From Loxodes magnus (lineage: Eukaryota > Ciliophora > Karyorelictea > Loxodida > Loxodidae): DNA of 64,000 nt. The DNA lies in NCBI GenBank assembly GCA_946699065.1, contig CAMPDV010000871.1, positions 1 through 64,000 on the forward strand. Reading direction: 5' to 3'. The notes beneath the pieces were generated by a model. It did no database searches. It was not told the origin of the DNA and worked only from the letters and a program-made list of their open reading frames with translations. A program made the translations under genes and the position numbers. Shown here piece by piece: positions 5,905 through 61,560 of this stretch; positions within the stretch are counted from its first letter, which is position 1; every line of letters begins with the position of its first letter.

Positions 5905-6296
5905 AAAAATGGATGACAGCTGTGGTTAGGAGAATCTAATCTGGTGCAGTGTATACTGCGTTGTTAGTAATCTCTCACTAAATGCTACCATGGGGAAGGG
6001 TGGACAAGCTTGGATGAAGCAAGCCCAAATTTCCCGAGGGTTCTCACTATCAATATTTAAGTTTGGCTGAAGGACTATTAATGACTTAACTACTAATTCT
6101 TATTTTGATCTTATTCTAGAAGATTGGAGCATTTAGTTCAAGACTCAAGAATAATCTTTACTAGCCAGATTCCCAATTTGGAGAAGCTGACGTGACTCAT
6201 TGGACGGCTAGAATGACATCATGAAGTATGAGAGCAATTTCTTTTAATATTAATATTGAAAAAGCTGTGCACCAACGAGGTGCTACGCTCTCTATA
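5905..6296 (+). mobile_element. Element C, copy 1 (small ORF plus type I 3' hairpin)
   Basis: One of four copies (others at 20241, 22400 and 51101). The body starts GGATGACAGCTGTGGTTAGG. It encodes a decayed short protein whose best-kept part is a coiled segment (RRLEHLVQDSRIIF … LEKL … LIGRLE … HHEV). TGA codons interrupt at T*LIGRLE*HHEV*, and three of the four copies have TGA in the LE*HH position. It ends with the bipartite hairpin AGCtgtGCACCaacgaGGTGCtacGCT (6262-6294). Frames change within the body in this copy, so it is probably not functional. Confidence 0.7.
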
Positions 6297-14984: not shown

Positions 14985-17900
14985 ATCTCTTAGCTTTTTA
15001 ACTACAAATCTATTTTTTCGTAACTCTAAATATTGTAATCACTTATAAACTTTTCATCTTCCAATTTCACTTCTTTCCATAAAAGAATTTAGTCTTCTAC
15101 TCTAAATCCTTCTTATTTACTAATCTTCTTCTTCAACTATTTTATTGCATTATAAGGTTTTATTTCTATATTAAAAGATTATCCATTTTACCTTCTTATT
15201 GTTACTATCATTCCATTTTAAACTATTTCTTCTAAGAAAATAATTTCCCTCTCTATATTTTAATATTCTTATACAGTTTTACTATTATTTAAAATGATTC
15301 CATCCTAAACTAATCTTTATTCATCTTAATTTACCATTAATTTCTTTTATATATAATTCTTTATTTATTCAATAGTATCTGTAGCTTAAACATTTAATAG
15401 TAATATTTAACCATTATAAGCTTAAACCATTAATTAGATAAGTCTTTATTAAGTAAATAAGTGTAGAGTATCTTTATTGCTTATATTATAATGCTATAAA
15501 GTTAGTTAATCTTCTAGTAATTTATCTTGGAAGAGTAGAATTTATTATTCTATAGGATATTATTATTTATCTTAAACTTTACTTTTAACTTAATAAATAG
15601 TATCTTCTAAAGAGATTTATAAAATAAAGCTTTCTCCATTGAAAGTTTTAATTAGAACATGCATTGGTAGTATTAAATCAAGTGTTTAGTTATTTTGTAT
15701 ATTATAATGATAGATAGTATTTTAATTTTTAAGTTCATTTCCATTATAAAATAATCTTTATTGTTAAATTTAAAGCTATTCTTTTTGATTAATTTATTCT
15801 TTTAAGTTAAGAACTGTTTCTGTCTAGCCAATACTAACTTTTATAGATTTATTAAATGAAAGAGTTACAAGCAACTAAATTTCATTATCTAGTTCAATTT
15901 CAGATTCCTTTTATATATTATAATAAGATAAAGTGCGACCATCTTCTAATTATTAACCTGCAAAAATAAGTTTTTATTAATCTGGAGGAATTCCTTCTTT
16001 ATCTTATATTTTTGCTTTTACATTTTCTATAGTATCAGAAGGTTCAACGTTAAGTGTAATAGTTTTATCTGTTAAAGTTTTTATGAATATTTAAAAACTA
16101 CTCCTTGATAGTAAAATTAAGTGTAAATTTGACTCATTTTATATATTATAATCAGATAAAGTACGACCATCTTCTAATTATTTTCCTGCAAAAATTAGTC
16201 TTTATTAATCTGGAGGAATTCCTTCTTTATCTTATATTTCTGCTTTTACATTTTCTATAGTATCAGAAGGTGTAACGTTAAGTGTAAAAGTTTTGCCTGC
16301 TAAAGCTTTTACGAATATTGACATCACTGATCTGGGACGCAATACTAGATTTAAAGTTGATTCCTTTATTATATTATAATCAAATAAAGTACGACCATCT
16401 TCTAATACTTTTCCTGCAAAAATTAGTCTTTATTAATCTGGAGGACTACCTTCTTTATCATAAATTTTTTCTTTTATTATTTCTATAGTATCTTTAGGTA
16501 AAACATCAAGTGTAATAGCTTTACCTGTTAAAGTTTTTACGAATATTTACATTCCGCCTTTTAAATCATTTAAAAAATATATAATTTTATCTCTTTTTAT
16601 TCCATAATCGCTTAACTTATACTCGTCTTTCAATTCCTTCTTGTATTATAAAATCAATTTTATCTTATCTCTTTCTACTTTTTAAATTCTTTCTATTTCT
16701 TCTTTTATACTTGTTATCTTCTAATCCTTATCTACTCACAAACTCATTTACTTTCCACTAAATTACTTTATTTAAAATTCTAATTTTTCTTCTTTTATCT
16801 TCAACTCTATTCTTTAATCATTTCTTATTTCATAATCTTATAGTGTCTTTTCATTCTCCAACTACATCTCTTATATAAATAACCTTTATTCACTTATTTC
16901 ATCTCCTTTCATCTAATATATTAATCTCTTCACTCTCTCTATTTTATCTTATATCCCAATTTTTATTAAATATGGTGAGGTATATTTTTAATGCACTTCT
17001 ATTTATGTTTCTATTACACTCAAACTGAAATATATATCATCTTATTCTTCTTCATTTTATTGATTATTTATTTACTATATTTATTACATCTAAAAATCTA
17101 AACTTATTTCATTATTTATTTATCACTCCTTTTTTATATATCTTATAATATCCTATTAGCTGTTTGCTTGATTTACCTTTATAACTTTTTATTAATTTTT
17201 ATTATCTGATATGATGATTTGCATATTATCAGTAAACTAAAGTTCTAGAATTATATCATCTATCTTATACTTATTAAACTAGTAATAATATAAAGTCTGT
17301 TAATCTTCTAGTTACTATCCTTTTATTATTAATCTTTAGAATTTAGTTTAGATACCTAATCTTTCTTTTATGATCTCTTTTATCTCTTATATAGTATTAA
17401 ATAAATTTACTTTTACTTCCATTCATCTTTCTACCTCTAAAAATCATTTTATTTTAATGTTAATAGTTAAAAAGGTTACCTACAAATTAATTGTAGATTG
17501 TTATTATATATTGTAGTGAGATAAAGTTTTGTTATCTTCTAGCTATTTTCCTTGGTAAGTTAAATTTTAAAATTCATGTGAAATGCCATTTAAATCGTAT
17601 ATTAATTCCTTTACTCTACTAATAGTATCAGAGTATTAAGCACTTAGTAACAATTTAGTGTTATAACTTTACATGAATACTTGTATTACTTTATATTAAA
17701 CTTCTAACTTAAGTGTTAGTTCTTCTATATTATTAAATTCTTATATCATAGTTTAATCATCTTATTATTTACCATCTAAAACTAATATTTAGTTTTCAGC
17801 CAATATTCCCTTTTTATCTCATATTTTCTTTTTATTTCTAATATAGAATCTGATATATCTGCTTTAATTGAAAAATTAGTATATGATTGTATTTTTATTT

Positions 17901-18807
17901 TCTTTGATTCTTATAAGTTTTCTAAATTATTATTCTATTAGCCAATTACCTAATTCTCATTTTAACTTGCTTATAATTTATTCTAAAATAAGTTTTTATC
18001 AAATATAAGTTCATTTTAAATAAGACTTTCCATTATATCTTATAATATTTATTATTTTTATGCCTACTATAAGTGTAATTAAGAAATGTTACTTTCTATA
18101 TTGCAGCAGTTTTATATTTAGTTTTAAATATTTTATACTTTTTAATCAATTTGTTCTTTTTAAATATTATTAATATTACTAAGTTATTTCATTTCAGAAA
18201 TAATTCCTAATGTTTATTTCTCATAACCAGAGATAAAATTATTAGCTTTTAAGTATTTATCTTTCTATATTTAGAATATTTGATTAAATCTACTAAGTAT
18301 GGTATTTATTATAAGTTTCTAAGCTTCTTAAAAGATAGTTCTAGTATTATTAAATTCCTATTAGATTTAATTTTTATTATTTTCCAAGATATCAAGTTAC
18401 TTATTTAAGTTCTAGTGATTTGATTATAATTCCTATACTTTTTATTTTTTATATTAGTTTTATAAGTTATTAAACTCTTCAATAGTTAGAATATTATTAC
18501 AGTTTCTGTGATTTTATAATAAGCAGTTGCTACAAATTTTTTATTAATGAGAAGTACAAAAAAGATCATAGATTTTTTTGTGAATAGAACATTAAGGATT
18601 TTCACCTAAGATTAGTTATAGCTAAGGTTGTAATTAATCAATTTCTTTCTCAATTTTTTTTCCACAAACTTAACAAGAATAAGCTTCTTAACCTTAATTC
18701 TTAAGTTTAGCTAGACAGATAGAGCAAAATACATGATCGCACTCCAACTTAAGAGGAACATGAATATTACTATACTGATTTTAGCAAATAGGACAAACTT
18801 AGTTCAT
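14985..18807 (-). pseudogene. TRIM-polyubiquitin fusion, copy 1 (one frameshift)
   Basis: From ATG at 18807, read with TAA/TAG as Gln. It has a C3HC4 RING (C5, C8, C23, H25, C28, C31, C45, C48), a B-box 2 (C73-x2-H-x7-C-x7-C-x2-C-x4-H-x2-C), a Gln-rich coiled coil, then about twelve tandem ubiquitin folds. Repeats 6-8 (about 15.9-16.57 kb) are near-canonical ubiquitin ([20 protein letters not shown]) but end in R-x-R-S or similar, not RGG. Compared with copy 2, one T is missing in a T-run near 17830, shifting the frame inside repeat 1; the frame then continues to about 14985. Three TGA codons remain, at 17444, 17423 and about 17134. A fourth at 16736 is shared with copy 2, as is 17444. It was possibly functional until recently. 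No ubiquitin-processing Gly-Gly is seen. Confidence 0.85.
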
Positions 18808-19149
18808 CTTAATTGGTAATTATAAAGCTTTTTAATATTTATTGGTTTATTTAAAATTATACTATATTTAAGTATAAAACTAAGATTATATTAATGTCTA
18901 AGAATTATTAAAATATAAAATATTATTTTATTAGCTAATCAAATATGTTTGCTTTATTATTTATAATAGAAAGCTGATATTTAATCAACATTGTAAAAAA
19001 AGCATAAATTATTAAGAGGAAATCAATTAAAAAATGATTTACTTGGTTATATTTAAGTAGTTTATTAATTTAATATGCAAGCTATTTAATATCTAAGTTA
19101 AGTTCTATTTTTTCAAATTTATGTTTATTTTTAGAATTAAAAGATGGGG

Positions 19150-20090
19150 ATAGGAATAAAACTCATAAACACTCTTAAGGAGGGGAAGAAAACTAAAGGA
19201 GTTGAGCAAGTAATAATCTAATCCTCCTAGTAGCAAGTAACCTTGAGACCTTTCTATAAATACTCTTACTCCTAGCTAGGTATCCCCGACCGCCGAAAAG
19301 CCTAAAAAATCTAATATTATAAAAATAGGAAATTTAAATCTAGATCCCACAACAAAAAGAATAAGACTATTCAATAGTCGTAGCAGCGTTAACAGAAATG
19401 GTACATAAGCTAAAGAAAAAAAATAAAAGCTAGCAACTTTAAGAATTATGCAAAAATTCAAAAGAGTATAATTTCAATTTAAAGGGAGATCCAGTAACTT
19501 CGAGATTAACTTCCAATTCCAAAGATAGATTCAGCGACAACCAAGCAAGCCATTTTCCAATGAGGGAAAAACTAGATATGATGTATGAAATAAAAACGAA
19601 GTCAAAATAGAAACCTCTTCCTTAAGCTTCCACAATTAAATAGACCTGATGGAACTGGAAAACTTGAAACGCTCCGAAAATCTTTAATTCAACTCCCCAT
19701 CCTAAATGATCCGGATTAAGAAGAAAAAGAAATACTAAAAATGTAGCTCAAATGGGTACTTCTATCGCAACTATCCGGAATTTCTAAGAAAGTCGAAGTA
19801 ATATTGGTCTAGATTCTACTAGGAAGATTTCGGGAAACAAAGCAAACATATTAAAGCAAAAAGATATACTGTACATCTTGAGGTAATTCTATCAAAAAAG
19901 CTGTCAAAACAGAATCAAGGATCATAAGTTAGAATGAGAAACCAATTCTATGAAGATCCTGATCCTCTTGATTTTGATAACCTATCCTCCTGGTTGGAGT
20001 ACCAGCAAAACCCTCTCATCTTTAACAGGAGAAAATGCTAGTCGATAAGAGGTTGAAATACTCGAAAAATATTTATAGATTTTACATTAT
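19150..20090 (+). pseudogene. ORF1-like coding remnant with knuckle residues changed to Tyr
   Basis: Plus-strand coding in Gln code, with frame changes near 19560. The first part is basic (SQLGIPDRRKAQKIQYYKNR). Next comes a helical part with QREIQQLRDQLPIPKIDS, then a region aligned with zinc knuckles but reading Y-x2-C-x4-Y-x4-Y (KKYQKCSSNGYFYRNYPE). It ends with NQFYEDPDPLDFDNLSSWLE. The copy at 49320-50230 keeps the same words, so it was coding before duplication. I do not recognise the C-terminal domain. Confidence 0.55.
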
Positions 20091-20240
20091 TCTTTCGTAA
20101 CTTCAATTTTTGTATAGTATAATTAAAAATAATTGAAATTATTAATTAAATTTAAAACATAGTATATCTAAAGAAACTTACAATAAAAACTAGTTTTAAT
20201 CATATCTTATAACACTTTTGCTAAATCTTTATTATAAAAA

Positions 20241-20631
20241 TTCGATATCGGCCGCGGTCAGAAGAACTAGTAGGTAATCTGGTGCAGTGTGTACTGCATT
20301 GGTAATTTAGCACTAGATGCCACCACGGGGAAGTGTGGACAAGCTAGGAAGTGACGAATCTAACTTCCCCGAGGGTTCTCGCTAGCAGGATGGACATTTG
20401 ATTGGCATGATGCTAAAATTCAATTATTAATTCTTATTTGAATTTTATTCAAGAAGACTGGAGTAATTGGTTCAAGATTCGAGAATAATGTTTAATAAGT
20501 AGATTTCCCATTTGGAGAAGATGATGCAACTCATTGGACGACTAGAATTACATCATGAAGTATGAGTTCATTTTTTTAATAAAAATCTTAATATTGAAAG
20601 AGCTGCGCGCCAACGATGTGCTATGCGCTCT
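20241..20631 (+). mobile_element. Element C, copy 2 (longest ORF)
   Basis: Starts GATATCGGCCGCGGTCAG and ends with hairpin AGAGCtgcGCGCCaacgatGTGCtatGCGCTCT (20599-20631). In one frame it is open from the start of the body to HHEV-TGA, about 100 codons (…MPPRGSVDKLGSDESNFPEG… RRLEQLVQDSRIMFNKQ … LIGRLELHHEV). The frame is conserved in the 51101 copy. The product has a C-terminal coiled coil. Function unknown. Confidence 0.7.
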
Positions 20632-20749
20632 GTAATCATATTTATTTATAAGCTTAAAAAACTAGTTATTTAAACTTATAAAGAAAATGAAAATATGTAA
20701 ATTAAATGCTAAAATTTTAACATTTTAACATTTTTTCTTATTATTAAAT

Positions 20750-21060
20750 ATGGCATCGAAAGGGAATGGTACAAGGTGCTAAACTCCAATCATTTTTTTG
20801 GTTATTGAGTCCTTTGGACCGTTTCAAGAGATGACATGCCTATTTAATTATTCTGGGAAAATGAGTCTACGATAAGGATGATTGGAGTCTAATCCTTCGC
20901 TATGTCTGCATCAATTGTAAAGTCGATGGTGACTTGAATTTGTCAAAAGATCAGATAAAGAAGATCAATCCTCAAACATAACTTCTCAAGAAGATACTAT
21001 GTTCTGTACTAAGAAACTTCTGGAAGTCCAAAATCCTGTGCTCTTAAGAAAATTAAACTT
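20750..21060 (+). pseudogene. Small ORF unit D1, copy 1 (frameshifted)
   Basis: Homologous to 51608-51905, which reads MVSKGNGTRCQTPIIFWLLS … GDWSLILRYVCINCKVDGDL with two TGA codons before LRYVCINC. This copy has one extra T in a T-run near 20799, which breaks the frame. The YVCINC CxxC segment resembles YCILC of element B, suggesting a shared short zinc or RNA-binding module. Confidence 0.5.
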
Positions 21061-21212
21061 TTTATCTTAATCTTAACATTTTTTCTTCCTTCTTTAACAA
21101 TATTTTTATTTAATCAATATTTAAGGAAAGATAAATGAATATTAAAGCTTTTTATTTTAAACAATAAAAAGTATTAAAATTAAAATTTACATATTATAAT
21201 TTAAAAAATTCA

Positions 21213-21640
21213 AATGACGAACACAGTCAGGAGAGTTTTCAATCTGGATGCTATCACTGATAAGAGAAGAAGGGCCTAAAGAGAGTTGTCTAACTTATTT
21301 GAAGATTCTTGCTAAAATGAATGTTTGAATGATGTTGGAATCTTAGCCCATAACTCTTGGATCCAGTATGCATCTCTGACATTCCATATTGACCAACAAG
21401 ACAGCATATTCAAGATGAAGAAGAAAAGATATGAAGGAGGCCAAGTATTTTTGAATTACTATTCTGGTATTCAACTTCAGAGAATATGATTACTTAATAA
21501 AGATCAAGAATTTAGAATATAAAATAAGTTCCCATTTGGAACTACTGTATCTCGAGAATTACAAGAGGCAATAATTATCAAGAGGGCGTCTTTAATTTTT
21601 TTAAACTTAATTTGTGACAAACTATTAATTGGTGCTATCA
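21213..21640 (+). CDS. Small ORF unit D2, copy 1
   Basis: ATG at 21213 opens a frame of about 150 codons with TAA/TAG as Gln and one TGA near codon 90 (LQRI*LLNKDQEF). It begins MTNTVRRVFNLDAITDKRRR and has SNLFEDS, a word shared with the minus-strand ORF at 27556-28113 (PYLFEDS). Nucleotide stretches such as TCAGGAGA…CAATCTGG and TTCCCATTTGGA match element C, so D2 is a distant relative of C. It ends in GTGAC…GCTATCAC, a decayed form of the hairpin at 52470. No family recognised. Confidence 0.55.
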
Positions 21641-21989
21641 CTTTAATCTATTTATTTATAAAGAAATTTAGAAAATAATAATGTTCTCATACATTAGATT
21701 CTTTTGATAATTTTTAATTACTATAATATTACTTTTACAATAATTTTTTCCTTTTGCAGTTTTTGATAATTGAAGTTCTATATAATTTCTATTATATCAC
21801 TTTAGCTATAATTTTTTTTATATATTGTTTAATTCGTTTTTAATTAAGAAAAACAAAAATATTACATAATTAGACTATTTTTTAATAATTATTTCAATTT
21901 TATTTTATTTAAAATCCTTTAATTAAAATTAAAAAGTTTAATTATTCAAAATAATCTTAAATTTATATTAGAAAATATATTTAAATAAA

Positions 21990-22250
21990 ATTCAATAATC
22001 GCAAAAAATGGTGGATAAAAAGTCTGATGAACTTTCAGAAATGGTTTGAATTCTGAGTTTTACCTGCGTGAGGCTTATTTTCACTAGTAACCTCAAGAAT
22101 TGATCAGTGTAGATGAATAAAAATATTCTGAACAGTATGTATTTTTAAATACTCATTTTTCCGGAAAAATGAATTCCAGAAACATGTAAATATTTCCGTA
22201 AAGGATTATATTACGCTGGGCAGACCATTCCAGTTAGTAAAAATGTCTTA
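21990..22250 (+). pseudogene. Small ORF remnant, copy 1 (GLYY-GQTIP unit)
   Basis: From an ATG at about 22008 the frame has three TGA codons and ends EK*IPETCKYFRKGLYYAGQTIPV. The copy at 52888-53110 reads EK*IPKTCKDFHKGLYYTGQTIPA. The protein-level match, including a shared TGA after EK, shows former coding. Function unknown. Confidence 0.45.
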
Positions 22251-22399
22251 ATGTTCAATGAAAAAAGTAGAATTAATATTTGATCCAACTTAAAATAGTA
22301 AAATAATAATTTGCTCTTCAATAATTAAAGTTAGCAGAATATTAAAAAAAGTTATTGATATTTATGAATGTATAAGGAAATATAGTAAATTTTCTACAG

Positions 22400-22701
22400 G
22401 GGAGTGGATTAGCTCGGAAGAGAGAAATTTAACTTGCCTAAAGGGTTCTCGCTAGCAGTATGAACGTCTGACTGACATGCTGCTTACAATGCAATTATTA
22501 ATTCTTATTTGGATCTTATTCAAGAAGACGGGAGCAATAGGTTCAAGATTCAATAATAATGTTTAATATAGATTCCCCATTTGGAGAAGCTGATATGACT
22601 CATTGGACGATTAGAATGACATCATGAAGTATGAGAACACTTTTTTAGTATCAATATTAATATTGAAAGAGCTATGAACCAACGATATGCTATGTGTTCT
22701 A
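22400..22701 (+). mobile_element. Element C, copy 3 (5' truncated)
   Basis: Joins the element C sequence partway (GGGGAGTGGATTAGCTCGG…), keeps YERLTDMLL and the LIGRLE*HHEV* end, and finishes in a decayed type I hairpin (22668-22701). 5' truncation is typical of reverse-transcribed elements. Confidence 0.65.
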
Positions 22702-22736
22702 TAATCATATTTTTTATTTATAACTTATATAAAATG

Positions 22737-23930
22737 AAAGCTTTTTAAAGGGTTCATGCTTTTAGGAAAAGAATAAAGAAAAAAAGAAAAACCGTAACTA
22801 TTCACAAGATAATTCCCTAAAAATTTAATAAGCACAACAAAAACTCTGGAAAAGGAGAAACTACCAAAAAATATAAATTAACTTCTTAAAGAAGTATCAA
22901 CTTAAGATATTCGACACTTTGATACTTTAAAATAGGAATAGGATTAGAGATATAACTAAGTCAGAAACTGACAGATTTCAGTAAGAACTGGTCAAGAAAA
23001 TAAAAAATCTAACGATGCTATTGAATCACCAAGAAGATGAATTACTAAATTTAAGCAAGAACTAGAAGAAAATATCAAAGATGATTATCACCATGAAATA
23101 TCTTTGACAAAAACGGAATAATTTTGAGAACTCAAATAGACATTGAAATTTTAAAAGAATAGTAAGAAAAAAAAGAAATCAGATTGGATGAGGCATCTTT
23201 CTTATTATAAATAAATTGGATTATAGAGCACGTAGCCCTCGATAATGCGCAGCTCTTTAAATTAATTTTATTTAATTTAATTTAATGTCGAAAAATAACA
23301 TTTTATGGGTCTCCTTATCCTTGTTTTCTCTTCCTGTAGTACGTCCTTGTAATTTTTCCTTCCAAAGCATAGGATGCAATATGCGATTACGGGTACATTT
23401 CCCCGACTTATGATGAAGAAAGTTTTCTCCTGGTATTAAGAGTTCTCCAGCTAGTCGAATCTTCCTTCTCTTGTTATTGGTTTCTCTTCCTACGATTTAT
23501 CCTTCGTCCGCGCTCATTTTTTAGTTGCCTTGCTGGACCTCCAGCAGCATCCGAAGGAAAGGTTTTTCACTCTATTTAAAAAATATTTATTAATAAAAAG
23601 ATTGAAAAGAAAGGATTAAAGAGTAAACTCTAGCGATGATGGAAGTTGAACAACCAGAATCTATGAAAAAGGAATGCAGAGAAGAGATCAAGAAGCCTAG
23701 GAAGAAGTGCTGGCATTGTCATTCTCAGTATCATCTACTTAATAATTGCACCTAATTTATAGAATTTGAGAAGAAAAGTAACTTAGAGGACATGAAAGAA
23801 ACTTACCAAATTTTGGATTGCACGTAAGAAAAATTTCCAAGAGAAAGATACTGAGCTCAATATGTTACTAGTCCTTTAAAAGATTTCATAAGCGTTTAAA
23901 TAAAGCCGAAAAGCTGACAATTTTAAATAT
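22737..23930 (+). pseudogene. Zinc-knuckle ORF1-type gene split by element B
   Basis: The N-terminal part (22737-23210) begins MKAFQRVHAFRKRIKKKRK and has a coiled segment QELVKKIKNLTMLLNHQEDE. The C-terminal part (23636-23930) has MMEVEQPESMKKECREE then a CWHCHSQYHLLNNC knuckle. Element B1 (23225-23571) separates them. The paralogous block at 58640-59450 carries the same two parts without it, so B1 inserted into the gene. The Trp of CWHC is TGG, while the 39-kb copy has TGA there. Frameshifts are likely in the first part. No G-x-I-Y motif was found. Confidence 0.65.
23225..23571 (-). mobile_element. Element B, copy 1, inserted in an ORF1 gene
   Basis: About 90% or more identical by eye to 34295-34644, and related to 28770-29111 in the other orientation. 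On the minus strand: TAGAGTGAAAAACC start, ATGAGCGCGGACGAAGG ORF start, and type I hairpin end (23225-23256) followed by TATAATCCAATTTATTTATAA. It has one extra base after GGATAA compared with the 28770 copy, so the ORF is shifted early. Confidence 0.75.
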
Positions 23931-24019
23931 TAATAAGATTATTAAATGAATTTATAATAATAAAACTTTAAATAAAATAATAATTATAAGATAAATTTAT
24001 AATTAGCTATATAGATAGA

Positions 24020-24870
24020 ATTAAGTTTTCCCTTTTTGCTAAAATTAATGAAGCAATATATTTCTCTAAGGTTGGAGTGCTAGCATATGTTTTACTCGAT
24101 TTGTTTAGCTATACTTAAGATCAAGATAATGAAGCTTATTCTTATTAAATTTAAGAACAAAAATTGGAAAGAAATTGGTAAATTATAACTTTAGATATAA
24201 CTAGCCTAAGATGAAACTTTCAAATGTTCTTTCACAAAAAGTCATTCAATCTTTTCTGTATTTCGCATAATTAAAAGATTTTTAGCAATTGCTTATTGTA
24301 AAGTCACAAAAATTGTATCGATATTCTAGCCATCGAAGAGTTTAATATCATATAAGAATAATAAAAGCAATAAAAAGCTAAAGAGATGATTAAAACACTA
24401 GAACTTAATAAATTAGCTTTAATAAAGAAAGACCATAAAACTTAAATCTAATAGGAGCTTAATAATGCTAGAATAATCTTTTAAGAAGCTTCGTAACTTT
24501 TAATTAATATAATTTTTAGTAAACTTAGACAAATGTTCTAAATATAGAAAGAAAAATACAAAGAAGCTAATGATTTTACCTCTGCTTATAAGAAGCAAAT
24601 ATTAGGAATTATTTCTGAAATGGAAAAGCTTAAAAATGATAATAGTTGGCTAATCATATTATTGAATGTTTAAATTTCGGATAGCATTGGCTAATTAAAG
24701 ACTTATCGATAAAAGAAAATAAGAGCTAATAAAGTTAAATAAAAAATATATATAATGGAATAATCCTATAATTATAAGTGATATAAAATTTGGATACTAC
24801 GAAAGGTTAAGAAAAAATTATAGCATTAAAGATTGGAAAGAAAGCATTTTTGTAAAAAATTATGCAAAAA
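24020..24870 (+). pseudogene. Decayed TRIM (RING/B-box/coiled-coil) gene without ubiquitin repeats
   Basis: Several frames together match the N-terminus of the TRIM-polyubiquitin protein. The pieces are LECQHMFYSICLAIL (RING), then CISHNQKIFSNCLL and SHKNC (B-box), then IQKEKYKEANDFTSAYKKQI and [10 protein letters not shown] (coiled coil). RING Cys are partly lost (C to Y) and at least two frameshifts are present. It is on the strand opposite to the intact copies. The ubiquitin part is absent. A parallel remnant lies at 60520-61560. Confidence 0.65.
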
Positions 24871-45151: not shown

Positions 45152-48100
45152 TCAGCTCAAATAATTAAATCTAAAACTTTGATTTATTTTAAAAATTTAT
45201 TTTTCAATATTTATTATTTTTTATATTTATATTATATATATCTATTGCTTATAGATTTGATAGTACCAAGTAAATATCTTATAAACATTAGGCAAGCATT
45301 AGTAAAAGAATGTTAAACAAAAATTTTAACTTATTATGGAAGTAAATTTTTAAAATAATTGTTATTCTTCTTTAATCTTTAAATCTAATATTTTATTGTT
45401 TGCAATCTTGTAACAACTTAACGTGTCTTCATCTCTTAGACATTCTTTTTGTAATAAAATTATTTAATTTTCTACTTTTAAACCTAATTATGCACTAATT
45501 TTCTTCTTCAATTTTTCTATTGTATGATAAGGTTTTATTTCTATATTAAAATTTTATCCATTTTTTTATCTTATAGATACTTACATTCCGTTCTAACCTA
45601 TTTATTCTAAGAAAATTATTTTCTTTTCTATATTTTAATAATCTGATATTTTTTTATCGTTTTATAGTATAATTCCATCATAAAATAAATTTTATTAGTC
45701 TTTTTAAATTCCTACTTTATTATATAATTAAGTCTTAACTTATTCTATAGTATCTGAAGTTTAAACATTTACTAAACCTATTTAGCCAGTATAAGTTTAC
45801 ACCACTAATTAGATAAAATGTTACTAAGTTAATAGCTATAGAGTTTCTTTATTATTTATCTAATAGTGCTATAAACTTTTCTAATCTTCTAGTATTTTAT
45901 CTCGAAAGAGTAGAATTTATTAATCTGTAGACCAAGTTTATTTATGGGAAATTTTCTTTTTAATTGATGAAATAGTATCTTTTTAACTAACTTATAAAAT
46001 AAAACTTTAACCATCTAAAGTTTTAAAAATTGCCTCATATAATAATACTAAATCAATTCTTTAGCCATTTTATATATTGTAATGATTTATTGTATTTTAA
46101 TCTTCTAGTTCTATTCCATTATTTAATAACCTTTAATAAATAGATTAGATGTTTTCTTTCTCATAAATCTATTGCTTAATAAATTCGATTTTTTCTTATT
46201 CTGAAATATTTATTCTTTGAGATTTATTATCTGGAAGATTTATGTTTATCTAAACAATAAAATATAACTAAAGTGTTGAATTATTGCAAATTTTATAATC
46301 GCATAACGTACAATGATCTTCTAATTTATTATTTTCAAAAAATAAACTATATTTTTCTGGGGGAATATTTTCTTTATCATATATTATAGCTTTAATATTT
46401 TCTATGGTATTAAAAGATTATACATCAAGTGTAATAATTTTACCAGTTAATAGTTTCACGAATATTAACAAACCATTTCTCAAATTTAGTACTAGATGTA
46501 AAATTGACTCTTTTTATATATTATAATCAGATGGTGTTCAATTATCATCTAATAATTTTCCAGCATAAATAAGTTTTTGTAATTCTGGAGGAATACCTTC
46601 TATATCTTATATTTTATCTTTAACCTTTTTTATAGATTTAGAAGGTTCTATGTCAAGTTTAATGATTTTACCTGCTATAGATTTTACAAAGATTTGCATC
46701 CCACCTTTTAATTAATTTAATAATTATATACTTTTATCTCTTTTTATTCCATAATCAATTAACTTATAGCCTTCAATTAATTCCTTTTTATAATGTTAAA
46801 TTAATTTTATCTGACCTTTTTCTATTTTTTCAATATTTCCTATCATTTCTTTTATATTTTCTATACCTTCAAACTTATTTACTCATAAAATAATTTCTCT
46901 TCCACTTAATAACTTTATCTATAACTCTATTTTCTCTTCTTTTACCTATAAATCTATTCTTTAATTATTTCTTATTTTATAATCTTATAAAGTCATTTTA
47001 TTCTCCAACTACACCTATTATATTAAGAACTTTTGCTCACTTATTTCTATTCCTCATATCTAATATACTAATCCTTTTAATTTCTCTATTCTATCCGTTA
47101 TCCCAACTTATATTTGATACTATAAATTTCTTTCTTAATAAACTTCTATTTGCATTTCTATTATGCTTAGACTAAAGTTAATAACATCTTATTATTCTTC
47201 GTTTTTTTTGCAACTTTACTACTACCTTTACTACATTTGAAAGTCTAAATTAATTTTCTTTTATATTTTTTACTTCTTTTTTATATGTCTTATAAGATCC
47301 TAAGAACTGATATTCCTTTTTACCTTTAAAGCAAATTTTTAGTCTGCATTATCTGATATGATGATTTTCATGTTATCAGTAAACTAAAGTACTAAAATAA
47401 TATCATCTAATTTATATTCCTAAAGCTAGTAATAATATAAAGTCTTTTAGTCTTCTAAATATAGATTTTTTATCATTAATCTCTAAAATTTTGTTTAAAT
47501 ACCTAATCTTTCATAGATAAGCTCCTTTATCTCTTATATAGTATTAAATAAATTTGCTTTTACTTCCATTCGTCTCTCTACCTCTAAAAATCATTTTATT
47601 TTTATGTCAGTAGTTAAAAAGGTTACCTACAAATGAATTGTAGAAAATTATTAAATGTTATAATATGATATAGTTTGATAATTTTCTAATAGCTTTCCTT
47701 GGTAAATTAAGTTTTAAAATTAATATGAAACACCATTTAAGTTTTATATTTAATCCTTTACTTTTCAAATGGTATCAGAATATAAAACATTTAGAATAAA
47801 TTTAATATTATAAATTGAAATGAATATTGATAATACTTTTAATTAGATTTCTAATTTAAAAGTTAGTTCTTCTATATTATTGAATTCTTTTATCATAGTT
47901 TAATCATCTAGTTATTTATTATCATAAATTAATATTTAGTTTTCAGTTACTATTCTTTTTTTATCCAATATTTTCTTTTTTATTTCTAAGATAGAATCTG
48001 ATATATCTGCTTTAATTGTAAAATTAGTATATGATTGTATTCTTATTTTCTTTATCTATTTTAAATTTTCACAATTATTATTCGATTAATTAATTACCTA

Positions 48101-48955
48101 ATTCTCACTTTTGTTTGCTTTTAATTTATTCTAAAATAAGTTTATATCAAATATAAGTTCATTTTATATGAGATTTTCCATTATATCTTATAATATTTCT
48201 TATTTTTATACCTATTATAAGTGTAATTAAGAAATGTTACTTTCTATATTACTGCATTTTTATATTTAGTTTTAAATAGCATAAATTTTTTGATCTGTTT
48301 CTTCCATTTTAATACTATTAACCTTTTTAAGTTATTCCATTTCAGAAATAATTCCTAATATTTATTTCTTATAAGTTGAGATAAAATCATTAGCTTTTAA
48401 GTATTTCTCTTTTTATATCTAGAATATTTGTTTAAATTTACTAAGTATGGTTTTTATTAAAAGCTACTAAGCTTCTTAAAAGATAGTTCTAACGTTTTCA
48501 AACTCCTTTTAGATTTAATTTTTATTATTTTCCAAGATATTAAGTTAATCATATAATATTTATTGATTTGATTATAATTCCTATATTTTTTATTCTTTAT
48601 ATTTGTTTAATAAGTTATTAAACTCTTCAATAGTTAGAATATTATTACAATTTCTGTGATTTAGTATTAAGCAATTGCTACAAATTTTTTATTAATGAGA
48701 AGTACAAAAAAGATCGAAGGATCTTTAGTGAATAGAACAGTAAGCATTTTCACCTTATATTATTTATAGCTGAGGTTCTAATTAACCAGGTTCTTTCCTT
48801 ATTTTTGTTCTACAAACTTTACAAGAATAAGCTTCTTAACCTTAATTCTTAAGTATAGCTATACAAATAGAGCAAAATACATGATTGCACTCCAACTTAA
48901 GAGGAACATGAATATTACTATACTAATTTTAGCAAATAGGACAAACTTAGTTCAT
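45152..48955 (-). CDS. TRIM-polyubiquitin fusion, copy 2 (1268 codons, five TGA)
   Basis: One continuous frame from ATG at 48955 to TGA at 45152 when TAA/TAG are Gln. RING C3HC4: C5, C8, C23, H25, C28, C31, C45, C48. B-box 2: C73, H76, C84, C92, C95, H100, C103 in canonical spacing. A Gln-rich coiled coil covers about residues 105-300. About twelve ubiquitin folds follow from about residue 305 to 1220; several keep S-D-T-I-E, I-P-P-E and L-x-D-Y-N-I marks. The repeats are more diverged than in copy 1 and lack Gly-Gly ends (LNLRNG after repeat 6). In-frame TGA occur at SDTI*KVKD, KIK*FLEVE (47591), YQI*GIE, IIL*VNK (46883) and EDN*TPSDY. If TGA is sense, this is a full-length TRIM-type E3 candidate carrying its own ubiquitin chain mimic. 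If not, it is a pseudogene broken only by TGA. Confidence 0.85.
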
Positions 48956-49319
48956 CTTAATTGGTAATTATAAAGCTTTTTAATATTTATTGGTTTATTT
49001 AAAATTATACTATATTTAAGTATAAAACTAAGATTATATTAATGTCTAAGAATTATTAAAATATAAAATATTATTTTATTAGCTAATCAAATATTTTTGC
49101 TTTATTATTTATAATAGAAAGCTGATATTTAATCAACATTGTAAAAAAAGCATAAATTATTAAGAGGAAATCAATTAAAAAATGATTTAATTGTTTATAT
49201 TAAGCATTTTATTAATTTAATATGCAAGCTATTTAATATCTCAGTTAAGTTCTATTTTTTATAGATTTACTATGATTTTTAGAGTTAAAAGATAGAAAGA
49301 TAAGAATGAAACTCAGCAA

Positions 49320-50235
49320 ATCTTTAAGGAGGGGAAGAAAACTAAAGGAGTTGAGCAAGTAATAATCTAATCCTCCTAGTAGCAAGTAACCTTGAGACCT
49401 TTCTATAAATACTCTTACTCCTAGCTAGGTATCCCCGACCGCCGAAAAGCCTAAAAAATCTAATATTATAAAAATAGGAAATTTAAATCTAGATCCCACA
49501 ACAAAAAGAATAAGACTATTCAATAGTCGTACCAGCGTTAACAGAAATGGTACATAAGCTAAAGAAAAAAAATAAAAGCTAGCAACTTTAAGAATTATGC
49601 AAAAATTCAAAAGAGTATAATTTCAATTTGAAGGGAGATCCAGTAACTTCGAGATGAATTTGCAACTCCGAAGATAGATTGGCAACAACCAAGCAAGCTA
49701 TTTTCGAATGAGTGAAAAACTATATATGATATATGAAATGAAAATGAAGTCAAAATAGAAACCTCTTCCTTAAGCTTCTACAATTGAAATAGATCGTATT
49801 GAATTGGAAAAATTTAAATGCTTCGAAAAATTTAAATATAACTCCCCATTCTAAATGATCCAGATTAAGAAGAAAAATAAATACTACAAATGTACCTCAA
49901 ATGATTACTTCTATCGCAACTATCATGAATTTCTAAGAAAGTAGAAGTAATATTGGTCTAGATTCTACTAGGAAGATTACGGGAAATAAAGCAAACATAT
50001 TAAAGCAATAAGATATATTGTAAATTTTGAGGTGATTCTATAAAAGAAAGCTGTCAAAACAGAATCAAGAATAATAAGTTAGAATGAGAAACCAATTCTA
50101 TGAAGATCCTGATCCTCTTGATTTTGATAACCTATCTTCCTGGTTGGAGTTCCAGCAAAACCCTCTCGACTTTTATAGGAAAAAATCTAGTCGATAAGAG
50201 GTTGAAATACTTGAAAAAATATTTCTTGACTTAAC
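49320..50235 (+). pseudogene. ORF1-like coding remnant, copy 2 of 19150-20090
   Basis: Protein words are shared with copy 1: SQLGIPDRRKAQ, YFYRNYHEFLRK, NQFYEDPDPLDFDNLSSWLE. The knuckle is again Y-x2-C-x4-Y-x4-Y. Frameshifts differ from copy 1 (for example near 50045), so both decayed after duplication. The first 300 bp are nearly identical between copies. Confidence 0.55.
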
Positions 50236-50239
50236 ATTA

Positions 50240-51060
50240 TTCATTCGTAACTCCACCCAAGAAATAATAGAACTCTATTAATACTTTCATAAAAAGACAA
50301 GAAGAATAGTATAATTTAACTGAATAGTCATCAAATTAAAATTAAGAAAAATAATCAAAATAAGCATTTGAATAATCAGTTCAATAGTGAATATCTAATT
50401 TACAGTAGGAACTAAAACCACATAGATAAAAAATAGAATTAATAGAGACCAATTTAAATGAATTGTAGCAAAGAATAGATTATGATTTCTCAGTAGTAGA
50501 GCAAACCCTAAATTCAATCTAATAATAAATGAGTGACAAACTGAATCAAATTACCATACATTTTCAGGACATTCCCTAATTTTTTTAATCAGATCTCTAG
50601 ATTTTCCATTAACAAATAAAATAACTTTAAGAATAACAAACATAGCAACTAGAATTTAATTAAAAATTTATGGTATAAACATAATCCATACCGATGGAAA
50701 TAGAACCTTATATTGAGTTATAATTCGTAAATAGGATAAGTCAACAACTTAGAAAAAACAAGATGCTGATTTGTTAAAAATCACATTAAACGGAAAGGTG
50801 CTGGTAAAGATATCATATATATATGGAAAATAAAAAAATGTTATGAAAAGAATTTTCTAGAACAAAAGAGTGATTTAATGTTTGACCTGCAAGATCTGGA
50901 AAGATATACAGGAAGAAATACTGAAACTCAAAACTAAATTAAACAAATAATAACGAAGATTGGACAAGTAGATAAGGATAGCAGACAAATGAAGTCTTAA
51001 GCCGTCCTTTAGTTTAAGAATAGACTGAACAAAGTATTTAGAGAATTTAAAGGCTAATTC
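50240..51060 (+). pseudogene. ORF1-type coiled coil with degenerate knuckle and G-x-I-Y motif
   Basis: Present only in this copy of the block; copy 1 lacks it between 20.09 and 20.24 kb. In Gln code: a coiled coil (ELIETNLNELQQRIDYDF, VEQTLNSIQQQMSDKLNQ), then ICQKSHQTERCW (a degenerate knuckle with one Cys lost), then KML*KEFSR and PARSGKIYRKKY with four TGA. KML*KEFSR aligns with EIWRELSR of the intact 13992 ORF, so TGA again stands at a Trp site. No frame change is evident between about 50390 and 50960. Confidence 0.6.
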
Positions 51061-51100
51061 TTAAAACTAAAAACTTAATTTTATCTTTTTTTTTATAAAA

Positions 51101-51491
51101 ATATGATGTCGGCCACTGTCGGGAAAATTAGTAGACAATCTTGTGTAGTGTATACATTGCGAGTAATCTCGCACTCGATGCCACCACGGGGAAGTGTGGA
51201 CAAACTCGGAAGTGACGAGTCTAACTTACTCGAGGGTCCTCGCTTGCAGTATGAACGTTTGATTGACATGCTGCTAAAATTCAATTATTACTTCTTATTT
51301 GAATTTTATTCAGTAAACTGGAGCAATTGGTTCAAGATTCGAGAATAATGTTTAATAATTAGATTTCCCATTTGGAGAAGATGATATAATTCATTGGACG
51401 ACTAGAATGACATCATGAAGTATGAGAAAACTTTTTTAGTATTAATCTTAATATTGAAAGAGCTGCGCGCCAACGATGTGCTATGCGCTTT
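51101..51491 (+). mobile_element. Element C, copy 4
   Basis: Starts ATGATGTCGGCCACTGTCGGG. An 81-codon ORF (51103-51348) begins MMSATVGKISR and contains SVDKLGSDESN and YERLIDMLLKFNYYF. It leaves the element C frame near FYSVN, because the SRRLEQ frame continues one base off. It ends in a type I hairpin (51459-51491). Confidence 0.7.
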
Positions 51492-51607
51492 GTAATTATA
51501 TTTATTTATAAGCTTAAAAAACTAGTTATTTAAGCTTATAAAAAAACAGAAAATATGTAAATTAAATGCTAAAATTATAAATTTTAACATTTTTCTTATT
51601 ATTAAAC

Positions 51608-51910
51608 ATGGTATCGAAAGGGAACGGTACAAGGTGCCAAACTCCAATCATTTTTTGGTTATTGAGTCCTTTGGACCGTTTCAAGAGATGACATGCCTAT
51701 TTAATTATTCTGGGAAAATGAGTCTGCGATAAGGGTGATTGGAGTCTAATCCTTCGCTATGTCTGCATCAATTGTAAAGTCGATGGTGACTTGAAGTCGT
51801 CAAAAAATCAGATGAAGAAGATCAATCTTCACACATAACTTCTAAGAAGATACTATGTTCTGTACTAAGAAACTTCTGGAGGTCCAAAATCCTGTGCTCT
51901 TAAGAAAATT
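51608..51910 (+). CDS. Small ORF unit D1, copy 2
   Basis: ATG at 51608. One frame of about 110 codons in Gln code, with TGA at FKR*HAYL, LGK*VCDKG and VLY*ETSG. The core GDWSLILRYVCINCKVDGDL has a CxxC pair, as in the element B protein (AYCILC). The first two TGA are shared with copy 1 at nucleotide level. Function unknown; possibly a small zinc-binding protein. Confidence 0.5.
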
Positions 51911-52066
51911 AAACTTTTTATCTTAATCTTAACATTTTTTCTTCCTTTTTTAATAATATTTTAATTTAATCAATATTTAAGGAAAGATAAATGAATATTA
52001 AAGCTTTTTATTTTAAACAATAAAAAATATTAAAATTGAAATTTACATATTATAATTTAAAAAATA

Positions 52067-52500
52067 TTAATGATGATCACAGTCAGGAGAGTTTTCAATC
52101 TGGATGCTACCACTGATAAGAGAAGAAGGGCCTAAAGAGAGTTACCTAACTTATTTGAAGGTTTTCGCTAAAGTGAATGTTCGACTGATGTTGAAATCTT
52201 AGTCCAAAGCTCCTGGATCCAGTATGTATCTCTGCCCTTCCATATTGACCAACAAAGCACCATATTCAAGATGAATAAGAAAAGATATAAAGTAGGCCAA
52301 GTATTTTGAATTATTATTCTGGTATTTTACTTCAGAAAATGTGATTATTTAATAAAGATCAAGAATTTGGAATGTAAAAGAAGTTCCCATTTGGAAATTA
52401 CTGCATCTCTAGAATTATAAGAATCAATAGTTGTCAAGAGAGCACCTTTAATTTTTTTAAACTTAATTCGTGATAAGCCTATTAATAGGTGACATCACGT
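52067..52500 (+). pseudogene. Small ORF unit D2, copy 2
   Basis: Same unit as 21213-21640, with changes that break the frame (for example one base fewer in the QVFLNYY region). It ends with a well-preserved type II hairpin. Confidence 0.5.
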
Positions 52501-52502
52501 TA
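52469..52502 (+). terminator. Type II bipartite hairpin of unit D2
   Basis: CGTGATaagCCTATTAATAGGtgacATCACG: outer stem CGTGAT/ATCACG, inner stem CCTAT/ATAGG. Followed by TTAATATATATA. Confidence 0.65.
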
Positions 52503-52887
52503 ATATATATATTTACAAATAAATTTAGAAAATAATAATATTTTCAAACATTCGATTCTTTTGATCATTTTTAATTACCATAATATTAATTTTACAATAA
52601 TTTTTTCCTTTTGTAGTTTTTGATAATTGAAGTTCTATATAATTTCTAATATGTCACTTTAGTTATAACATTTCCTTTATTTTTTTCATATCTTTTTAAT
52701 TTTTTTTAATTAAGAAAAACAAAATTACTCAAAATTATGAAATATTTTTTAATCGTTTTTTCAATTTTGTTTTATTTAAATCCTTTAATTAAAATTAAAA
52801 AATTTAATTATTCAAAATAATCTTAAATTTATAATTAGAAGATATATTTAAATAAAATTGAATAATGGGAAAAAATAGAGGATAAAA

Positions 52888-53140
52888 AGTTTTATGGACT
52901 TTCAGAATGGAGTTGAATTCTTATTTTTACCTGCAGGAGACTTATTTTCACTAGCAACCTCTAGAATTGGTCAATGTAGATGGATTCAATCAATTTTGAA
53001 CAAGATATATATTTCAATACTCGTTTTTCTGGAAAAATGAATACCAAAAACTTGCAAAGATTTCCATAAAGGATTATATTACACCGGGCAGACCATTCCA
53101 GCTAATTCCGGAACTTGCATCTGAAATCTACATATGATCA
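52888..53140 (+). CDS. Small ORF (GLYY-GQTIP unit), copy 2
   Basis: ATG at 52888 opens MDFQNGVEFLFLPAGDLFSL and continues through EK*IPKTCKDFHKGLYYTGQ with two TGA in about 80 codons. The TGA after EK is shared with the 21990 copy. No family recognised. Confidence 0.45.
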
Positions 53141-56179: not shown

Positions 56180-57020
56180 CTTAGTAGTCAGCCATCTGAC
56201 CTATTCTATCAGCTTGTCTCCATTAGTTTGTCTTGAATTTCTACTAGGCTTAGTTAGGCGGTGTAGCACTTCATTAGCGCACCATCCTTTAATATTCTGA
56301 ATAGTTTTGGTCTTATATGTAGTCCTAATTATTTCTCCAAGGATTAAGATTTGAATTAAATAATTTTTTTCTATAAATTTTTCCGCTTTATGTTGGATAT
56401 ATCCTAAATAGTTTTCTAAAAATATCTTATTTATTCTTTCTTTAAATTTCGCTTAGTTAGTAGCAGTATTTTCATTGGTGTTATTTATTGCACACGTAGC
56501 ATTTTATTCTTCTTTTAAACTATTATTCCTGTAACACTTATTTAATTTAAATTTACTACTTATTTTAAATAAACGTTTACTGTTTATTTTAATTTGAGGC
56601 TTCATTTTCTATTTCCATAGGATCTGATTAATTCTGTTAAATCGAAAATGCCGTTATCTGAATTTATTATTAAATTTAAAGAATTCTTTGTTCCATTTTG
56701 TCTTCTATTTCTTATGATGATTAATATTGTTTCTTAAGTAAAGACGTTATTAGTTTTTCTAATTTTTCTACTTTATCAGTGAGGTATCTATTTTTAAACA
56801 TAAACTCTTTTAATGACTTAGATAATATTTCTATTTGAGTTTGTGTCGGAAGTTTTTTAAATTCTGGATTTCCAAGTGGTTAATGTTCGTCATATCAATC
56901 ATATTTCTCACTTTCACTCATTGTAATTATTTCGCTTTTTTATTTTTTAGAGAATTTTCCTGTTTAAATGTTTTGTTCAAAGTTCTGTTATTTCTTAGAA
57001 GCCATTTTTATTTAATAGAA
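56180..57020 (-). pseudogene. Zinc-knuckle ORF1-type unit with short-spaced knuckle
   Basis: In Gln code the minus strand from an ATG near 56620 reads MEIENEASNQNKQQTF and a Gln-rich stretch. It then has KCYVCNKQHQ*KYC, a knuckle with CX2CX3HX4C spacing and TGA in its last loop, followed by FRIYPTQSGKIYRKKL, the family's tail motif. Near the 3' side a bipartite hairpin-like GGTGtaGCACttcattaGCGCacCatCC (about 56270-56292) resembles type I. 41640-42560 is a more decayed copy. Confidence 0.55.
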
Positions 57021-60417: not shown

Positions 60418-60519
60418 AAATTAATTAGAATAACAACTTAAATAAAATAATAATTATAAGATAATTTTATAATTAGCAATATAGTATTAACTAAGTCTGT
60501 TCTATTTCCTAAAATTACT

Positions 60520-61560
60520 ATAGTAATATTCATGTTCCTCTTAAGTTAAAGTCTTAGAATATTACTCTATTTTTCTGCCTATATTTAAGAATTAAGGTAA
60601 AGAAGCTTATTCTTGGTAGATTTTTAAAACATGAATAATGAAAGAAATTGTTTAATTATAGCCTTTACTATAACCAATCTAAGATGAAATTTAGATCTGT
60701 TCTATTTACAAAAAGTAATTATATCTTTGCTTTATTTCTCATAATTAAAAAGTTAGTAGCAATTACTTATTGTAAATCATAAAGTTCGTGATGATATTCT
60801 ACCATCGAAGAATTTAATTTTTAATAAGTATAATAAAAAGAACAAAAGGTAAAGGAGTTATGATCAAATCACTAGAACTTAAAAAATAAGTTCCAAATAT
60901 TGGAATACCATAAAACTAAAATTTAGAAGGAATTTGATATAAAAGAATAATCTTTTAAGAAGCTTCTTAACTTTTAATAAATACCATGTTTAGTAAACTT
61001 AAGCAAATATTCTAAGTATAGAAAGAAAAATACTAAAAGTTAATGATTCTATCTCTACTTATAAGAAATAATTATTAGGAATTATTTCTGAAATGGATAA
61101 CTTAAAAATGTTAATAGTATTAAAATGGAAGAAATCTATCAAAAATTTAAATTATTAGTACTAGATATAAAACTGCTGTAATGTAGAAAGAAGCATTTCT
61201 TAATTAAACTTGAATTAAGTATTAAAATAAGAAATATTATAAAGCATAATGGAAAATCCTATTAAAAATGAACTTCAGTTTCTTGATAGTTAGAAAATTT
61301 AAAAGTAGAAGAATAAGATAAATAAAGTACTCCTCCAGAATAATAAAGATTTATTTATGCTAGTTAAATAATATTATTGAATGCTTAAACTTAAGATATC
61401 ATTGGCCAAATAAAGTTTTATATAAAAGAAAATAAGAGTTAGTAAAGAAAAATAAAGCTCAATATATGATGGAATCATTCTAAAAAACTTTAAGTTATAT
61501 AAAGTTAGGATATTACTAAAGTGCTAAGAAAAAAAAATATCATTAAAGATTGGAAAGAAA
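60520..61560 (+). pseudogene. Decayed TRIM gene, paralogue of 24020-24870
   Basis: TATTCATGTTCCTCTTAAG (NIHVPLK of the RING loop) and later IQKEKY and IISEMDN-like coil words are recognisable, and nucleotide order matches the 24-kb copy. It retains some extra sequence near 61140-61330 absent there (KMEEIYQKFK…), which matches the coiled coil of the full TRIM copies. Most RING and B-box Cys are lost. No ubiquitin repeats were found. Confidence 0.6.

Follow-up and report, generated by a model that had tools for sequence, protein, structure and literature searches.

RING/B-box/coiled-coil proteins extended by arrays of ubiquitin folds: a candidate family of TRIM-like E3 ligases in the ciliate Loxodes magnus

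A 64,000-nucleotide stretch of the Loxodes magnus genome (contig CAMPDV010000871.1, positions 1 to 64,000; hereafter the window) contains two copies of a gene in which a RING, a B-box 2 and a coiled coil (together RBCC) are followed by a long array of ubiquitin folds. The frame at 45152..48955 (copy 2), described in an initial annotation that did not state its strand, is real and lies on the minus strand; a single frame runs from a C3HC4 RING through a B-box 2 and then a coiled coil to 11 significant ubiquitin folds. The RBCC-ubiquitin-array architecture is, in our assessment, near certain to be real. We regard it as evenly balanced, judging from the predicted proteins, whether these genes constitute a lineage-specific multigene family of TRIM-like E3 ubiquitin ligases in which the C-terminal target-binding domain is made of 9-15 ubiquitin folds, as if the ligase were already chain-tagged. 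The features of copy 2 are as follows.

45152..48955, minus strand: copy 2 RBCC-ubiquitin-array gene, ATG at 48955 to TGA at 45154-45152, 1267 codons before the stop (table 27)
48812..48943, minus strand: C3HC4 RING, Pfam match at residues 5-45, ligands C5 C8 C23 H25 C28 C31 C45 C48
48647..48751, minus strand: B-box 2, Pfam match at residues 69-102, ligands C73 H76 C84 H87 C92 C95 H100 C103
48170..48640, minus strand: coiled coil, residues ~106-262, with no Pro and one Gly, from its periodicity of 3.57 and the match to TRIM72
46700..48046, minus strand: divergent N-side units u1-u5, sharing 23-32 of 76 residues with host ubiquitin (iterated profile)
near 47237-47371, minus strand: possible decayed unit (E 0.92)
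46697..46708, minus strand: KGG-M junction preceding u6, the first near-ubiquitin unit; sole Gly-Gly junction found in copy 2
46262..46699, minus strand: near-ubiquitin block, u6 (52/76) and u7 (40/76) by comparison with host ubiquitin; the copy number of this block differs between loci
45371..46252, minus strand: divergent C-side units u8-u11 (21-29/76 by the same comparison)
47765..47767, minus strand: in-frame TGA at residue 397
47591..47593, minus strand: in-frame TGA at residue 455
47054..47056, minus strand: in-frame TGA at residue 634
46883..46885, minus strand: in-frame TGA at residue 691
46538..46540, minus strand: in-frame TGA at residue 806

The frame had been presented as continuous with TAA and TAG read as Gln. 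This holds only if the five internal TGAs are also read as sense, as Trp, which fits genetic code table 27; under a strict table 6 reading these TGAs break the frame. Host genes use table 27, with TAA and TAG as Gln and TGA as Trp inside genes and as stop at their ends: a Rab gene (L005) carries TGA at two conserved Trp positions in an alignment to Rab-11A, and the ubiquitin-L40 genes in L001, L002 and L005 terminate in TGA, so that copy 2, read by the host code, has an open frame throughout. According to the published account of the Loxodes magnus genome (PMC11441545), the macronuclear (MAC) assembly spans 706 Mbp, UGA is read as either Trp or stop (table 27), most introns are <=25 nt, 3' untranslated regions have a median length of 41 bp and GC content averages 33.5%. 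We rejected a pseudogene reading based on the five internal TGAs in view of the Rab gene and of the TGA conservation among the close relatives of copy 2 described below (cluster loci), where TGA is found at residue 455 in 19/19 in-frame loci and at residue 691 in 15/19; besides residue 455, four further sites carry TGA in 15-18 cluster loci. The remaining three TGAs (residues 397, 634 and 806) are private to copy 2 and give no support against the pseudogene reading. The terminal TGA comes after a 72-codon tail beyond the last ubiquitin unit. A plus-strand reading of the interval was also rejected, its frame 1 having several TGAs and no domain recognisable by eye.

The Pfam check proposed for the translated frame returned an N-terminal RING (zf-RING_UBOX, 29.2 bits against a cut-off of 25.2), a B-box and ubiquitin. 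The zf-B_box scores (cut-off 24.1) are 22.9 bits for copy 2, 24.3 for copy 1 and, for three relatives elsewhere in the genome, 24.9 (L049), 22.1 (L060) and 16.7 (L061); the eight B-box 2 ligands are invariant in 8/8 aligned RBCC rows, and all 16 zinc ligands, eight of them belonging to the RING, are intact in 19/19 in-frame cluster loci. The coiled-coil periodicity was matched by 0-4 of 500 shuffles in six loci, a comparison somewhat favourable to the real sequence, as one period in three was scanned for the shuffles. When an eight-sequence RBCC profile was compared with solved chains, TRIM72 was the best match (profile positions 5-162, E 1.2e-10), reaching into the coiled coil, and was followed by TRIM21, RNF4, TRIM2, TRIM29 and others. 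At the C-terminus, weak matches aside, Pfam identifies ubiquitin-fold families and not a domain that marks any described TRIM class.

In the array of copy 2, the Pfam ubiquitin family matches 11 stretches (E 1.8e-116), and an iterated profile yields 11 significant units together with a hint of a decayed one at residues 529-573; of the "about twelve" folds first reported, eleven thus stand and the twelfth is only suggested. Across the cluster loci the array follows a common plan, although L058 and L059 are less regular than the others: five divergent units (mostly 19-35/76 identical residues), a central block of 2-6 units (40-70/76) and four further divergent units. Copy number shifts within the central block, where units u07 and u10 of L049 are 98% identical as DNA. 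None of the copy 2 units is near-identical to ubiquitin (21-52/76), and the best unit in the family reaches 70/76 (L049). Where registers agree, the DNA of central units is 57-76% identical to that of host polyubiquitin units (the L40 columns and the L049 u07, u09 and u10 rows, being out of register, were not used), and we therefore rejected a recent capture of host ubiquitin; the capture looks old.

The encoded chain had been called uncleavable, and this is mostly borne out. Gly-Gly is present at 20/197 junctions in 20 distinct proteins (L047 and L051, identical to L046 and L050 respectively, not counted again, and junctions more than 25 residues apart or units below 20 bits excluded), including 4/58 junctions that follow near-ubiquitin units. 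Central-block junctions read SSF, RGV, CGY, RSV and similar, with L046 and L059 keeping two Gly-Gly each. The claim does not hold for one site: 15 of the 20 Gly-Gly junctions are a KGG before the first central unit, and this KGG is kept in 16/20 cluster loci (with L051, identical to L050, included), so that a single cut there is conceivable. Positions of the ubiquitin core are hydrophobic at 2416/2466 (98%) in 179 distinct units, compared to 79-80% of 1558-1649 alignable positions in shuffled units, meaning that part of the 98%, but not all of it, reflects alignment bias. Since the core is hydrophobic and Gly-Gly is rare, the array units look folded and mostly uncut.

The RBCC part, searched against the whole genome (705,730,643 bases, 7,843 contigs), yielded 98 matches, 21 of them close; 23 loci were taken at full length and six in part, and L023, a close match at a contig end, was left out of the array counts. 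All 20 close cluster loci (the two in the window and 18 more) have an RBCC followed by ubiquitin units, with 10-15 units above 20 bits, and a single frame runs through RBCC and array in 19 of them, the exception being copy 1 of the window. Three distant loci share the layout: L060 (contig C188; RBCC identity 31%) with nine units and one weak unit, L061 (C33; 30%) with 12 units, and L062 (C285), where frames are broken. L060 and L061 are each in one frame and reach a TGA directly after the last unit. The layout is therefore found in 23/23 full-length loci on seven contigs (20 in the cluster and three elsewhere), uninterrupted in 21/23, and Pfam supports it in copy 2, L060, L061 and L049. Of 800 candidates from a search with the first 563 codons of L060, 77 were scored; those listed were dominated by polyubiquitin arrays and included no new RBCC-array locus, so that the number of family members given here is a minimum. 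As L046 is identical to L047, and L050 to L051, at the protein level, some cluster loci could be allelic or have been copied very recently, and independent genes may number fewer than 20.

The other family member in the window and two fragments are located as follows.

14996..18807, minus strand: copy 1, RBCC at 18807-17908 and then 12 ubiquitin-like units, the first split by a frame break
24019..24646, plus strand: degenerate RBCC fragment with broken frames; no ubiquitin units were found beside it
60486..61281, plus strand: degenerate RBCC fragment with frame changes

The two fragments are remains of further family members. Copy 1 had been reported to have the same order as copy 2, with three near-perfect ubiquitins in the middle. 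The order is confirmed, but its RBCC and array lie in different frames owing to a 1-nt gap at ~17833, within an A-run; the three central units are present, but at 59-62/76 residues as in host ubiquitin "near-perfect" overstates them. L052, the locus closest to copy 1 by its units, does not have this gap. Over 1196 compared codons, copies 1 and 2 show 769 nucleotide differences, a ratio of nonsynonymous to synonymous substitution rates (dN/dS) of 0.51 and three gaps: the frame-breaking indel in the copy 1 A-run, one of 6 nt and one of 228 nt (a whole ubiquitin unit). In contrast, the two versions of their duplicated upstream flank are separated by 320 mismatches and 23 indels, of which 20 are of 1 nt (rows 19000-20125 and 20283-22269, those between and beyond being dropped as unalignable). 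We took this flank as non-coding because a Pfam scan of six frames of 49101-52603, on the copy 2 side only, gave no match at E 0.01. The plain reading of the scarcity of frame-breaking indels relative to the flank is that selection keeps the reading frame of the two copies. The duplicated flank extends over 19000-22236 and 49148-53104, its aligned 400-nt rows being 82-96% identical and its GC content ~31% in places; 19175-19474 and 49324-49623 are 100% identical (rounded). In the gene region, the first 1.2 kb are 87-95% identical (400-nt rows) and the remainder, to the end of the array, 67-81%, a mosaic identity that points to gene conversion or recombination among family members.

Selection across the family was estimated from 11 of the 19 in-frame cluster loci, copy 1 excluded. 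The median dN/dS is 0.52 (53/55 pairs), with 0.43 for the RING/B-box segment (38/55 pairs), which falls to 0.21-0.27 in three listed pairs involving L058 or L059. The near-ubiquitin block changes faster (median 0.71), and no segment has a median above 1.

The predicted proteins share with TRIM/RBCC E3 ligases, among which TRIM72 is the best solved chain, the order of RING, B-box 2 and coiled coil, and known TRIMs likewise carry a different C-terminal module in each class. They differ from them in having 9-15 ubiquitin folds as the C-terminal domain and in their N-terminus. A RING helix precedes the RING in TRIM5, TRIM21 and TRIM25; here just four residues stand before the first RING Cys, so that this helix is absent. 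With polyubiquitin genes the arrays share head-to-tail units of ~76 residues and a block that grows and shrinks, but here an RBCC precedes the units, these retain only ~19-70 of 76 residues of host ubiquitin and Gly-Gly is mostly lost. Ordinary polyubiquitin genes exist separately in the same genome, including long tandem arrays of them at C32:1232544-1288873 and on C537, C930, C1577 and C2553, with many copies spaced ~1,055-1,061 nt.

Tandem ubiquitin-like folds are also found in ISG15 and avian OASL, which have two folds and are not known to carry a RING or a B-box. Parkin and HOIL-1L/RBCK1 combine a single N-terminal ubiquitin-like domain with an RBR module. These two, named together in a TRIM survey (PMC3503706), resemble the present family in holding a ubiquitin-like fold within an E3, but the C-terminal array behind an RBCC is a feature of this family and not of theirs. 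The same survey records TRIM37-like genes outside animals. An analogy for RING-anchored chains is TRIM21, for which one report (PMC7900206) describes chain growth anchored on the TRIM RING: both that self-anchored chain and the ubiquitin-TRIM21 fusion 7bbd, which appears to have been engineered, hold ubiquitin beside a TRIM RING, but the TRIM21 chain is made by catalysis whereas a natural gene-encoded array characterizes this family. The initial annotation knew of no described protein with this layout; consistent with this, no description of an RBCC with a ubiquitin array is present among the literature matches listed (full text, with few subscription journals and no preprints), which is not proof of absence.

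The initial annotation suggested that an E3 with such a chain could act as a self-scaffold or chain mimic. By analogy with RING-anchored chain growth in TRIM21 (PMC7900206), a mechanism can be proposed in which the coiled coil would dimerise the protein and the RING would recruit an E2. Remaining part of the protein, the array would form a permanent linear ubiquitin-like chain in place of a target-binding domain, where it could dock ubiquitin-binding partners (the proteasome, p97-type or autophagy receptors, deubiquitinases) and supply acceptor lysines beside the RING, the E3 acting as though already chain-tagged. Changes in the outer units and in the near-ubiquitin block would then retune the partners. 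Such genes unite ligase and ubiquitin chain in one polypeptide of a natural family and, if the chain stays attached, provide a ready natural test of whether a RING-adjacent chain recruits E2~Ub, the proteasome, p97 or autophagy receptors, or blocks the ligase. They are also an instance of TRIM-type diversification outside animals, in a distantly related ciliate, and of a route by which polyubiquitin becomes a protein-protein interaction array through loss of Gly-Gly with retention of the core.

Several observations weigh against an active, chain-tagged ligase family. The RING and B-box domains score close to the curated Pfam cut-offs or under them, and all such scores of L060 and L061 are below (RING 24.4 bits in L061, just under the cut-off; zf-RING_5 19.0 against 27.9 in L060); in L060 the RING His position is Asp. 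The position directly behind the last RING Cys, which we take from TRIM25 to be that of the linchpin Arg, holds Arg in copy 2 but varies over 19 cluster loci (8 Arg, 9 Gly, 1 Lys, 1 Asn), and strong E3 activity is disfavoured because this Arg is often replaced. Residues of the Ile44 patch are altered in many outer units, and RBCC loci L033-L035, L038, L040 and L041, seen in part, show no ubiquitin unit. Cluster coding sequences have a GC content of 20-22%, below the published mean (27% in L060 and 23% in L061), and most cluster genes (L042-L059) lack a nearby in-frame TGA downstream of the last unit. In the manner of non-coding DNA, the sequence 3' of the cluster arrays varies by 1-nt indels from member to member; perhaps UAA and UAG also end translation near the poly-A site in these genes, or their ends have decayed. 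The low RING/B-box dN/dS comes from pairs with dS 1.2-2.2, near saturation, and is 0.45-0.76 in the four close pairs listed, while a dN/dS of ~0.5 also fits weak constraint. Finally, the family is known here at the level of predicted genes.

Low GC, missing stop codons and a dN/dS of ~0.5 would be accommodated if the fusion were real and old but the copies on C52, C697 and C871, copy 2 included, were weakly constrained or partly pseudogenes, leaving only single loci such as those on C188 and C33 at work; the frame breaks in copy 1 and L062 and the degenerate fragments at 24019 and 60486 fit this as well. We consider it unlikely, given that 19/20 cluster loci retain a single frame through the whole array, that 16/16 zinc ligands are intact in 19/19 loci, that divergent pairs have RING/B-box dN/dS of 0.21-0.27 and that the window copies differ by one frame-breaking indel per 769 differences against the 23 indels per 320 mismatches of their flank. 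The conserved KGG, along with the paired Gly-Gly junctions within the blocks of L046 and L059, could instead point to a polyprotein, from which a deubiquitinase would cut KGG-M (and the rare other Gly-Gly junctions) to free the C-terminal near-ubiquitin part from an E3 consisting of the RBCC and five units. This is rather improbable: the site is KGE in L046 and L047, NDW in L058 and RGK in L059, no Gly-Gly junction was found in L060, 177/197 junctions are without one, and the tail residues before Gly-Gly are unlike LRLRGG.

An arms race, in which the array would putatively mimic ubiquitin to trap bacterial or viral ubiquitin-targeting factors (or serve self/non-self recognition) while the RING marks what is bound, would agree with the local gene cluster, the copy-number change and median dN/dS of 0.71 of the near-ubiquitin block, the L049 unit duplications and the mosaic identity of the window copies; with no segment at a median dN/dS above 1, we find it quite doubtful. 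The initial annotation had also named two genes, or an assembly join, as what would refute the fusion. Such a reading can draw on the fact that the junction is known here from genomic DNA, but we judge it extremely improbable, because the distant loci L060 and L061 (30-31% RBCC identity) share the layout and stop directly after the array, and the same junction is found in 23/23 loci on seven contigs, 21 of them in one frame.

A related architecture was found in L040 (C606, 124-2232, minus strand; one copy examined), in which an RBCC that is a distant relative of that of copy 2 is followed by a USP domain (UCH, E 4.6e-60). Its Cys box reads NLGNTDWMN as compared to NLGNTCFMN in USP4 and USP15, replacing the catalytic Cys by Asp, and its His region is kept; by sequence, this USP-type domain is a predicted pseudo-deubiquitinase. 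More tentatively than for the family itself, we propose a new E3 class, TRIM-like with a fixed, encoded linear ubiquitin-like chain as its substrate-recognition domain and diversified into a gene family, accompanied in the same genome by a sister RBCC-USP family without the catalytic Cys; together they would form a lineage-specific toolkit that equips an RBCC dimer with either a mimic or a reader of ubiquitin.

A phage or viral origin was rejected, with 0 matches among phage records to a 2-kb DNA query and 0 of 74 pattern matches in viral contigs confirmed. Rfam and tRNA scans of the window found nothing, and L009 and L010, the next 20 kb of the contig, gave no listed match. A coding-potential scan of the window, circular in that it was trained on these same genes, gave weaker signals elsewhere, for example at 4447-5539 and 56267-56939 on the minus strand. 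The window also contains a dispersed repeat family at 20452-20734, 22521-22803, 51312-51594 and 6088-6243.

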